From Flavobacteriales bacterium (GTDB lineage: Bacteria > Bacteroidota > Bacteroidia > Flavobacteriales_D > Crocinitomicaceae), in assembly GCA_947460825.1 (NCBI GenBank), contig CANHHA010000007.1, forward strand, positions 1 to 64,000: DNA of 64,000 nucleotides, in the 5' to 3' direction. Position numbers and translations under genes: made by a program. Numbering within the stretch: position 1 is the first letter of the stretch; the number at the start of each line of letters is the position of its first letter. Shown here in pieces: positions 25,610 to 63,763 of this stretch. The notes under the pieces are model-generated. The model searched no databases, was not told the DNA's origin, and saw only the letters and a program-made list of their open reading frames with translations.

Positions 25610-26312
25610 AAAGCATCCTGGGTCGGACAGTATAGATGTTGGATATTTGTGTATAACCTTGGACTCCATCGGAGTCCGATAGTTTACAGTATAATCGTCC
25701 CCAACAAAGCGACTCCATAGGAGTCGAATGTTTCACCTGTAATTGAATACAAATAAGCTGCTCCACGGGGTTGAAGATACAACAAGGCATCAGTGAATCG
25801 AATGTTGGCTGTGCTTTGTTCGAGCCCGCTGGGGTCGGGCAGTATAGGTATTGGATATTTGTGTATAACCTTGGACTCCAGCGGAGTCCGATAGTTTACA
25901 GTATAATCGTCCCCAACAAAGCGACTCCATAGGAGTCGAATGTTTCACCTATAATTGAATACAGATAAGCTGCTCCAGGGAGTTGAAGATTGAACAAGGC
26001 ATCTGTGAATCGAATGTTGGCTGTGCTGTATTCGACCCCGCTGGGGTCGTGAAGTATTGGTAATGGATCTAATATACAATCTAGAACTCCAGCGGAGTCC
26101 AGTGTTTCACCTGTAATTGAATACGAATGTGTTGCTCCACGGAGTTGAAGATTCAACAAGGCATCTGTGAATTGATTGTTGGTGTTGCTTTGTTCGACCC
26201 CGCTGGGGTCGCGAAGTATTGGTGATGGATGTTTGTGTATAACCTAGGACTCCAATGGAGTCCTATAGTTTAAAGTGCCATCGTCCCGAACAAAGCGACT
26301 CCATAGGAGTCG
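25610..26312. repeat. REP/BIME-like array A: ~212-bp units carrying three classes of short palindromes, no transposase in the array
   Basis: GGACTCC-N3-GGAGTCC at 25661-25677, 25873-25889, 26084-26100 (one mismatch), 26247-26263. CGACTCCATAGGAGTCG at 25710-25726, 25922-25938, 26296-26312. CGACCCCGCTGGGGTCG at 26033-26049 and 26195-26211, imperfect at 25821-25837. Linkers also repeat (gatagtttacagtataatcgtccccaacaaag; aatgtttcacctgtaattgaatac; ttgaagattcaacaaggcatctgtgaatcgaatgttggctgtgct). Confidence 0.93.
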
Positions 26313-60744: not shown

Positions 60745-61869
60745 ATGTATAAAAAGATTGGCGTGCTTGGCGGTGGTCAGCTCGGACGAATGCTCATTCA
60801 AGAAGCAATAAACTTGGATGTTGAACTCCATTGTTTAGAGAATGATGATGACGCACCTTGTGCGAAAATTGCCCATGGATTTAAAAAAGGTTCCATTACC
60901 GATAAACAAACGGTACTTGATTTCGGTGCTGCATTTGATCTAATAACCGTTGAAATAGAGAATGTCTCGATTGAAGCGCTCTATGAATTGGAAGGATTGG
61001 GAAAAAAGGTATTTCCGCAACCTCGGGTACTGGAATTAATAAAAGATAAAGGCCTTCAGAAACAATTTTATGCGCAGCATAATATCCCAACGGCTCCCTT
61101 CATGTTATTGGATGCTAATTCAGATGACATTCCTCCGTTGGATTTTCCATTTGTACAAAAGCTCCGCGTTGGAGGATATGATGGTAAAGGGGTTAAAATA
61201 ATACGTTCTCAAACGGATTGGGAAAATCGATTTACTCTTCCATCTGTGATTGAAGCGATGATTCCCTTTGAGAAAGAATTGTCGGTAATTGTAGCCAGAA
61301 ATCCAAATGGTGAAGCAACCTGCTTTGATGCGGTAGAATGTGAATTCAATTCGGAAGCAAATTTGGTGGAATTTCAGTTTTCACCGGCAGCCATTTCCAA
61401 AGAAATAGAAGCCAAGGCTCAGGAAATTGCCAAGCATGTGATTTCAACCTTAGATATGGTGGGTTTGTTGGCGGTAGAGTTCTTTCTTACTGAATCCGGG
61501 GAGTTGTTAGTCAATGAAATCGCTCCACGGCCACATAATTCCGGACATCACACCATCGAGTGTTGCTATACCTCACAATTTGCGCAGCATTTGAGAGCAA
61601 TTTTGAATTTACCCTTGGGAGACACACGCTTGATTATGCCTGGGGCCATGCTGAATATTGTTGGAGAAAAGGGATTTGAAGGACCTGCCGTTTATCAAGG
61701 GTTGCAGGATGTTTTAGCAATGTCAGGAGTGTATGTGCATTTGTACGGTAAATCAACTACGAAACCTTTTCGGAAAATGGGTCATGTGACCGTGTTGGGA
61801 AGAGAGATATCTGAAATAAAAGAGCGAATCGAGTACATAAAAACAACCTTATTATGTCAAAGCTACTAA
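60745..61869 (+). CDS. purK: 5-(carboxyamino)imidazole ribonucleotide synthase
   Basis: 374 aa; 'KIGVLGGGQLGRMLIQEAINL', 'KLRVGGYDGKGV', 'NEIAPRPHNSGHHTIECCYTSQFAQHLRAIL'. Confidence 0.96.
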   Translation: MYKKIGVLGGGQLGRMLIQEAINLDVELHCLENDDDAPCAKIAHGFKKGSITDKQTVLDFGAAFDLITVEIENVSIEALYELEGLGKKVFPQPRVLELIKDKGLQKQFYAQHNIPTAPFMLLDANSDDIPPLDFPFVQKLRVGGYDGKGVKIIRSQTDWENRFTLPSVIEAMIPFEKELSVIVARNPNGEATCFDAVECEFNSEANLVEFQFSPAAISKEIEAKAQEIAKHVISTLDMVGLLAVEFFLTESGELLVNEIAPRPHNSGHHTIECCYTSQFAQHLRAILNLPLGDTRLIMPGAMLNIVGEKGFEGPAVYQGLQDVLAMSGVYVHLYGKSTTKPFRKMGHVTVLGREISEIKERIEYIKTTLLCQSY

Positions 61870-62507
61870 GTTACAGCATGGGATGTTTACTGCTTATCTT
61901 TATAAGCAGTGCATGCAAGGCGAATAAAAAAGCGTGTTCAATTCCAAAAGCTTCCGTAAAACAGGAAATAGAGCAGTGGAAAGCAGAATTATTGATTAAC
62001 GGTGAGGTAGGTCCTCCGTGCAAAAGGCGATACGATATTTGGATTGAAGAAAATCCAAATTATTATTACGGAATGCAACCGGTAAAGGAACTGAGCTCAG
62101 ATTTAAATGAGGATGGTAAAGAGGAGTTACTTTGTTATTTTCCGGCGGTTAACTGCGTTGGAGGAAATGGAACTGATTCAGATTTTGCGATGTTCTTGTT
62201 TCATAAGGATAGCATGTTACTAACCAATAAACGAATCAGTCTACAAATAGAAGAATATATCGAAGCTACCATTTATTCCAACCGTCTTGGTGAGAAAACG
62301 ATCGAAATAACAGATGTAAATATATTTTATGAATCAATGACGCGAACGATCAATGGCCGCTATGCGCTTTGGGTGTATGAAGATGCCCACTGTTGTCCAT
62401 CCTACGAAGGTACATTTAGCTATGATCCGTTTGAATTATCGATTGAAATGATGGATAAAACGCTTGGTGAAATCACCAATGATGCAGCTGAGATGCGCGG
62501 GTTTTAA
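61854..62507 (+). CDS. Hypothetical lipoprotein
   Basis: 217 aa; 'MGCLLLIFISSACKANKK' lipobox; 'SDLNEDGKEELLCYF' FG-GAP-like Ca-binding motif. Confidence 0.65.
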   Translation: MSKLLSYSMGCLLLIFISSACKANKKACSIPKASVKQEIEQWKAELLINGEVGPPCKRRYDIWIEENPNYYYGMQPVKELSSDLNEDGKEELLCYFPAVNCVGGNGTDSDFAMFLFHKDSMLLTNKRISLQIEEYIEATIYSNRLGEKTIEITDVNIFYESMTRTINGRYALWVYEDAHCCPSYEGTFSYDPFELSIEMMDKTLGEITNDAAEMRGF

Positions 62508-62523
62508 TCGGGTATAAATTTGT

Positions 62524-62882
62524 GTACGACTCCGAAGGAGTCGATTTAATTCGGTTTCCATTAGGTAAAATATAGGACTCCTTCGGAGTCTCAAATGTTA
62601 CACGAACAATTGAGCTCTAAATGAGACGACTCCATTCGGAGTCGAATTAAACTTCGTTGGTGTAGTTGTAAATCGGGGTCCTTTTGGTAAGAATTAGGAC
62701 TCCATCGGAGTCCGATGTATTAACAAAGAATCGAGCTCAAAAGAGACGACTCCATCGGAGTCGAATTAAACCTCGTTGATGTAGTTGTAAATCGGGGTCC
62801 TTTTGGTAAGAACTAGGACTCCATCGGAGTCCGATGTATTAACAAAGAATCGATCTCAAAAGAGACGACTCCATCGGAGTCG
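62524..62882. repeat. REP/BIME-like array B-left (leader palindrome plus 3 hairpin pairs, 119-bp pair period in the regular part)
   Basis: Palindromes: 62527-62543 (CGACTCC GAA GGAGTCG), 62575-62590, 62627-62644, 62697-62713, 62747-62763, 62816-62832, 62866-62882. A-to-A spacing 62697 to 62816 = 119; B-to-B 62747 to 62866 = 119. Confidence 0.95.
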
Positions 62883-62939
62883 AACCATACAAAACCTAAA
62901 CAACGAAAAATAAAATATAAAAAATGTTGTTTAAGAGCT

Positions 62940-63407
62940 ATGCCAAATACCTATTCTCAAATATATATTCACCTCGTTTTCGCGGTAAAATATCGACAAT
63001 CTTTGATAAATGAATCCTGGGAAACTGAGCTTTACAAGTATATTAATGGTGTTATTCAAAACAAGGGTCAGCTTCCTATCGCGATTAATGGAATGCCAGA
63101 TCATATTCACATTCTATTTATCATGAAGCCTACCTGTTGCATATCTGATTTGGTACGAGAAATTAAAAAATCGAGCACTGAATTTATTACCGTAAAAGGT
63201 TTTGTGCGCACCAAATTTCAATGGCAACAAGGTTTTGGCGCATTTTCTTACAGTCAGTCTTCGTTGGGAAATGTGAAGCGATATATAGAAAATCAAAAAC
63301 ATCATCATGCGGTAAAAACGTTTAAGAGAGAATATCAAGAATTTTTAAGCATGTTTGATATTGATTATAATCAGGATTATTTGTTTGATTGGATTCTTGA
63401 AAAATAG
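62940..63407 (+). mobile_element. RAYT-type / IS200-IS605-like Y1 transposase CDS embedded in REP-like arrays
   Basis: 155 aa; 'YSQIYIHLVFAVKYRQ', HUH motif 'NGMPDHIHILFIMKP' (HIH at residues 55-57), 'GFGAFSYSQSSLGNVKRYIENQKHHH' with candidate catalytic Tyr115. No TnpB nearby. Confidence 0.93.
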
Positions 63408-63763
63408 GTACGACTCCGAAGGAGTCGATTTAATTCGGTTTCCATTAGGTAAAATATAGGACTCCATCGGAGTCCGATGTATTAACAAAGAATCGATCTC
63501 AAAAGAGACGACTCCATCGGAGTCGAATTAAACTTCGTTGGTGTAGTTGTAAATCGGGGTCCTTTTGGTAAGAATTAGGACTCCATCGGAGTCCGATGTA
63601 TTAACCAAGGATCGATCTCAAAAGAGACGACTCCATCGGAGTCGAACTAAACCTCGTTGATGTAGTTGTAAATCGGGGTCCTTTTGGTAAGAATTAGGAC
63701 TCCATCGGAGTCCGATGTATTAACAAAGAATCGAGCTCAAAAGAGACGACTCCATCGGAGTCG
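63408..63763. repeat. REP/BIME-like array B-right (leader palindrome plus 3 hairpin pairs, 119-bp pair period)
   Basis: Palindromes: 63411-63427 (CGACTCC GAA GGAGTCG), 63459-63475, 63509-63525, 63578-63594, 63628-63644, 63697-63713, 63747-63763. Leader linker atttaattcggtttccattaggtaaaatata is identical to the left array. Confidence 0.95.

Follow-up and report, generated by a model that had tools for sequence, protein, structure and literature searches.

A putative subclass-1.2 Y1 transposase beside arrays of 3'-tagged hairpins in a Flavobacteriales bacterium: a probable REPtron-like system on the IS200 branch

In the window, that is, the whole 64,000-nucleotide stretch of DNA analysed here, a 155-residue ORF for a Y1/HUH transposase (62940..63407, plus strand; putatively TnpA-Y1 subclass 1.2 from its motifs and family models) lies between two arrays of seven palindromes each, an arrangement described in an earlier note on this DNA and confirmed by direct reading of the sequence, the repeats, and the hairpin list. 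The upstream array (array 1; 62527..62882) consists of GACTCC-N3/4-GGAGTC hairpins starting at 62527, 62575, 62627 (with a 4-nt loop), 62697, 62747, 62816, and 62866, and the downstream array (array 2; 63411..63763), which begins 3 bases past the transposase stop codon, contains hairpins in the same order starting at 63411, 63459, 63509, 63578, 63628, 63697, and 63747. The reported spacing also held, with the two palindrome forms designated A and B being 50 bp apart (once 52) and the pairs repeating every 119 bp (once 120). The earlier note had further described both arrays as a lone leader palindrome followed by three A/B pairs; the seven palindromes and their common order stand, but the second palindrome of array 1, at 62575 (GGACTCCTTCGGAGTCT), has a TTC loop and matches form A imperfectly; array 1 consequently lacks three identical A/B pairs. 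Moreover, judged by loop and 3' flank, palindromes 1 and 2 of array 1 are in the minus orientation and the remainder in the plus orientation, so that the supposed lone leader in fact forms an inverted pair with its neighbour, being the outer hairpin of the two. This leader doublet (62524..62591, minus strand), recognized from the repeats together with loop and flank, comprises a GAA-loop and a TTC-loop hairpin 48 bp apart, and the repeats reveal a second copy of the leader sequence directly 3' of the transposase stop codon (63408..63475). The leader occupies this same place in the sister genome G007, indicating that the direct framing is no local accident of this genome, and two sister species have the leader sequence unaccompanied by the transposase. 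On folding as single-stranded DNA, three tested stretches gave the expected 7-bp stems and 3-nt loops. Rfam comparison of the array sequence matched no RNA family, and an RNA family in the array was dismissed on this ground.

A transposase-free array of the same hairpin family is located at 25661..26312 (plus strand) between a 513-aa ORF and tRNA-Lys, and includes two GACCCC-stem variants. Within it, CGACCCCGCTGGGGTCG hairpins occur at window positions 26033 and 26195, and another is found at position 6454 of contig C53 of the same genome; they are possibly the trace of another transposase type.

The transposase contains the HUH motif H55-I56-H57, W95-Q96, and Y115-xxx-Q119-xx-H122H123, and shows the DH[IV]H and WQ motifs of subclass 1.2. 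Alignment bore out the HUH and Tyr residues proposed earlier: H55, H57, and Y115 are invariant both in 16 homologues and in 80, and Q119, H122, and H123 are likewise invariant in the 16, with H123 remaining invariant and Q119 and H122 conserved in at least 90% in the set of 80. The protein matched Pfam Y1_Tnp with 98.4 bits and passed the NCBIfam IS200 equivalog model (IS200/IS605; 75 bits against a cut-off of 55), whereas it failed the RAYT equivalog model NF047646 (24.9 bits against a cut-off of 80), and its active site reads Y115-IEN-Q, that is, Y-xxx-Q instead of Y-xxx-NP; the label 'RAYT-type', in the strict sense, was accordingly abandoned. The solved structures related by sequence were Y1 transposases, the best being 2xm3, the ISDra2 TnpA of the IS200/IS605 family. 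In Quentin et al. 2018 (PMC6006769), subclass 1.2 is characterized by a Y-xxx-Q-xx-HH motif, is listed without REP, and is generally without typical IS200 ends. On the basis of motifs and family models rather than a joint tree, we assign the protein putatively to class 1 (the IS200 branch), TnpA-Y1 subclass 1.2.

The transposase gene is single-copy; the genome has four PF01797 matches, none of them near-identical, and its remaining Y1 genes show at most 41% identity to the window protein and are accompanied by other palindromes. A second subclass-1.2-like transposase (C53:5583-6314, 41% identical) has an upstream array of GCCCYTTCRGGGC hairpins with a period of ~24 bp. Among 39 genomes, the GCCCYTTCRGGGC pattern was found only in the three with the C53-type gene and its hairpins (this genome, G000, together with G004 and G007), apart from one copy in G001. 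A third Y1 transposase (C2:96581-96943) adjoins long palindromes, GGGTGTGGGTTTAAACCCACACCC and a GCGGATTTAAATCCGC relative.

A genome-wide search for the exact pattern GACTCCN3GGAGTC gave 39 copies in the 2.66 Mb draft genome and none for the reversed-pattern control, the copies being placed at five sites, namely C7:25661-26312, the transposase locus, and contigs C26, C34, and C35. Hairpins thus both flank the gene and lie elsewhere in the genome, the combination by which a REPtron is recognized, and the copies elsewhere support the earlier proposal of a REPtron-like Y1/HUH transposase with dispersed cognate hairpins. By pattern search, GACTCC hairpins were present in three of 35 genus genomes (G000, G007, whose gene is 95% identical, and G001), the copy number being zero in 32 of the 34 genomes other than G000; examination of individual loci added two further species, G452 and G458. 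An equal palindrome density in relatives lacking the gene, which the earlier note had named as evidence against its proposal, was not observed. Hairpins are present in the fragmented genome G001, where the transposase gene was not detected, and in G452, where the gene is absent at the purK site.

Comparison of sister species at individual sites revealed differences in the arrays. At the AHCY site, the hairpins numbered 10 in G000, five in G458, four in G007, and three in G452, with none in G001, G004, G471, or G451. The MnmA site, at which the array lies between convergent genes, had six in G000 and two each in G458 and G452, with none in G007, G471, G004, or G451, and the empty junctions were near-exact in G471, G004, and G451. 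At the purK site, the gene and arrays were present in G000, G007, and G458, and G452 had the leader doublet without the gene; GACTCC hairpins were not listed for G004 or G471 in this comparison. These occupied and empty sites show that arrays were gained or lost and that their copy number changed. A lipoprotein-like gene lies between purK and the array (61854-62507), and its tblastn hits at the purK site, among 15 loci compared, were found only in the transposase-bearing G000, G007, and G458.

The association of hairpins with relatives of the transposase was analyzed in 80 loci from a profile search, scoring the copies of the most repeated hairpin within 600 bp of the gene, with a threshold of at least two. 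In 72 of the 80 relatives, a hairpin particular to the locus reached this threshold, as compared with 0 of 1600 shuffles and 0 of 50 distal windows. Comparable results were obtained with a second sample of loci from whole genomes, of which 26 of 29 had repeated hairpins (two of these loci being already present in the first set). The hairpin copies reached up to 11 per subclass-1.2 locus, and in nine parsable IS200-type genes without the HH motif, serving as subclass-1.1 controls, the top hairpin occurred as one copy in seven and as two in two. Hairpins also occur beside members outside Bacteroidota, in records titled Neomarinimicrobiota, Poribacteria, Cloacimonadota, and Ignavibacteria, and the profile matched in 188 of 395 genomes. 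Given the cognate hairpins at 72 of 80 and 26 of 29 loci, the 2018 listing of subclass 1.2 as having no REP does not hold here, and the protein assignment stands. A literature search found REPs for subclass 1.2 nowhere reported, in a search that covered subscription journals little, and an earlier report is possible. Other Y-xxx-Q-xx-HH proteins (L218, L219, L222, L226, and L228) have repeated palindromes of greater length in their flanks, for example CCCGTGGTTGAAACCACGGG, and these may represent another hairpin design within subclass 1.2.

The hairpins follow a common plan consisting of a stem of 5–7 bp, a loop of 3–4 nt (3 nt in 236 and 4 nt in 48 recurrent hairpins), a 5' A, and a 3' tag of approximately GNCATNTTNATAG, with CC nearly always at the stem end before the loop. 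When orientation was assigned by the loop alone (purine-first), the 3' side in 66 loci gave a consensus of about G-N-[CA]-A-T-N-T-T-N-A-T-A-G, and the 5' side past the A at -1 was near background; a 5' GT[AG]G foot was absent from these 66 loci and from the flanks of the window hairpins themselves. The tag signal over +1..+13 amounted to 5.80 bits by loop orientation versus at most 2.20 bits with random flips, and in 23 hold-out loci [AC]T at +4/+5 was present in 93% on the 3' side versus 18% on the 5' side. The window hairpins have AT at +4/+5 in most copies and read near AAC, not TAG, at +11..+13. In 26 arrays, the last hairpin agreed with the internal units as far as about +8, beyond which its identity fell to ~0.4–0.65 at +9..+13, where the internal units retain at least 0.93; this divergence, measured against the best-matching internal unit and thus a pattern rather than a mapped cut site, suggests that the right boundary of the unit is defined inside the tag. 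The strongest coupling in the 66 subclass-1.2 loci was that between -1 and +1 (A.G in 45, G.C in 8, and T.A in 7); pairing of the tag between +3..+5 and +10..+13 was outside the strongest couplings and was rejected. A fixed outer-end signature, GNAC, seen in the outward-facing hairpins of several arrays of the window family, was also dropped, since internal hairpins of the C26 array read GNAC too.

Of 117 neighbour distances below 100 nt, 76 corresponded to a pitch of 46–54 nt, and hairpins 40–60 nt apart across the family were direct in 63 cases and inverted (divergent) in one. BIME and REPIN units are inverted hairpin pairs, whereas 63 of 64 pairs here are direct, and the likeness to BIMEs drawn in the earlier note was not upheld.

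The recurrent stems, perfectly paired by the search definition, fall into 15 types that differ among loci and follow the protein phylogeny. Mapped on the protein tree, the stem required 32 changes versus a minimum of 39 and a mean of 44 after shuffling, and nearest neighbours agreed in stem in 25 of 68 cases versus a null mean of 10.1. Moreover, the three genomes that have the GCTCC-type transposase contained 19, 22, and 22 GCTCC hairpins, as compared with none for the control and 0–2 in G000, G279, G179, G192, G166, and G177, and the cognate genomes G289 and G354 had 33 ATCCC and 25 ACCGC hairpins, respectively. Across 11 genomes, a hairpin type was thus enriched mainly where the matching transposase was present; exceptions were G354 and G289, each with more than one hairpin type, and G166, which has 31 ATCCC hairpins and none at its best locus. 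Stem and protein may be related because the flank and the gene were inherited together. Position 77 of the protein correlates with stem position -5, with just three phylogenetically independent pairs; a residue code for hairpin choice is not independent of phylogeny on this basis, and we make no such claim.

Collectively, each protein lineage has hairpins of its own, which are 3'-tagged and arranged mostly head-to-tail at ~50 nt, are present also at a distance from the gene, and come and go as whole arrays; both the association and the hairpin design are well supported computationally. Hairpin recognition on single-stranded DNA is established for IS200/IS605 and RAYT relatives, and by analogy with this known biochemistry of the family the transposase would bind, cut, and move the hairpins. 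On the IS200 branch, the locus probably forms a REPtron-like system in which a single-copy subclass-1.2 transposase recognizes and moves its tagged cognate hairpins. Presumably, the protein would bind the hairpin and its 3' tag on single-stranded DNA and cut within the tag, and hairpin units of ~50 nt would be excised and reinserted, so that arrays would spread and change in length with the gene staying put. Counting against this proposal, 39 copies in five places are fewer than in typical REP families, hairpins occur in G001 with no transposase detected and in G452 with none at purK, and G354 and G289 each have more than one hairpin type; the changes in copy number could also have arisen from slippage at the hairpins.

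An ordinary IS200/IS605 insertion sequence, moving as a unit and having unusually many end hairpins, would agree with the passed IS200 model, with the presence of the gene at the purK locus in some sister species and its absence in others, and with the direct rather than inverted hairpins, an arrangement that fits the end hairpins of IS200/IS605; we consider it unlikely, however, as the gene is single-copy with other Y1 genes at most 41% identical and beside different palindromes, the hairpins have spread without it, and the subclass-1.1 controls show one or two copies of the top hairpin as against up to 11. The single-sided tag bears on a further explanation, namely that the hairpins are host elements (terminators or mRNA stabilizers) multiplied by replication slippage, the transposase being incidental or using them as landing sites. 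REPs elsewhere in bacteria serve in such roles (PMC6006769), the arrays are intergenic, that at MnmA lies between convergent genes, and the copy number of the 50-bp unit varies at one site. This explanation nevertheless predicts neither a one-sided tag, nor lineage-specific stems beside nearly every relative, nor the lack of hairpins in 32 of the 34 other genomes of the genus, and it needs an equal hairpin density beside unrelated genes, whereas the distal windows gave 0 of 50; it is improbable. A canonical class 2 RAYT/REP system with BIME-type inverted units, as earlier proposed, is very unlikely: it would account for the REP-like hairpins that frame the gene, for their copies dispersed in the genome, and for the inverted leader doublet, but the tested class 2 features contradict it, the protein belonging putatively to the IS200 branch with Y-xxx-Q and not Y-xxx-NP, the 5' GT[AG]G being missing, and the pairs being mostly direct.

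Extending the REPtron-like reading, we tentatively suggest, at somewhat under an even chance, that the IS200 side of the Y1 family has, in subclass 1.2, a widespread REP system of a further kind, whose ~50-nt mobile unit consists of a hairpin plus 3' tag and builds head-to-tail arrays. If true, insertion sequences and REP/RAYT systems would be bridged by subclass 1.2 as a living intermediate. The finding widens the range of REP systems to subclass 1.2, which is unlike RAYT/BIME in its protein class, in the side on which the tag lies, and in the mostly direct orientation of its hairpins. As many as half of the sampled Bacteroidota genomes had a match to this transposase group, which was previously described without repeats. 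If the association holds, this group would be a common source of dispersed hairpins in these genomes, with a clear recognition motif, and an intermediate for the origin of REP systems from insertion sequences.

With the IS200/IS605 elements IS608 and ISDra2, whose hairpin ends are recognized on single-stranded DNA, the present system shares the transposase family and the Y-xxx-Q active site, and differs in its single-copy gene, as opposed to the multiple near-identical copies per genome expected of subclass 1.1, in that no two-ended element was seen, and in the many hairpins per locus. It resembles REPtrons (TnpA-REP, RAYT) in having a Y1 gene amid cognate hairpins, dispersed intergenic copies, and a hairpin family of its own for each gene, whereas its putative class 1 protein, a 3' tag in place of the 5' GT[AG]G foot, and mostly direct pairs at ~50 nt set it apart. 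The TnpA-Y1 class 3 of PMC6006769 similarly resembles both insertion sequences and REPtrons, with atypical hairpins sometimes in high copy number, but is characterized by Y-xxxx-Q, a CnGA 5' foot, and other phyla. Finally, the protein agrees with TnpA-Y1 subclass 1.2 of PMC6006769 in DHIH, WQ, Y-xxx-Q-xx-HH, a size of ~150 aa, low copy number, and occurrence in Bacteroidota, and departs from it in that no REP is given there, whereas cognate hairpin arrays accompany most of the members sampled here.
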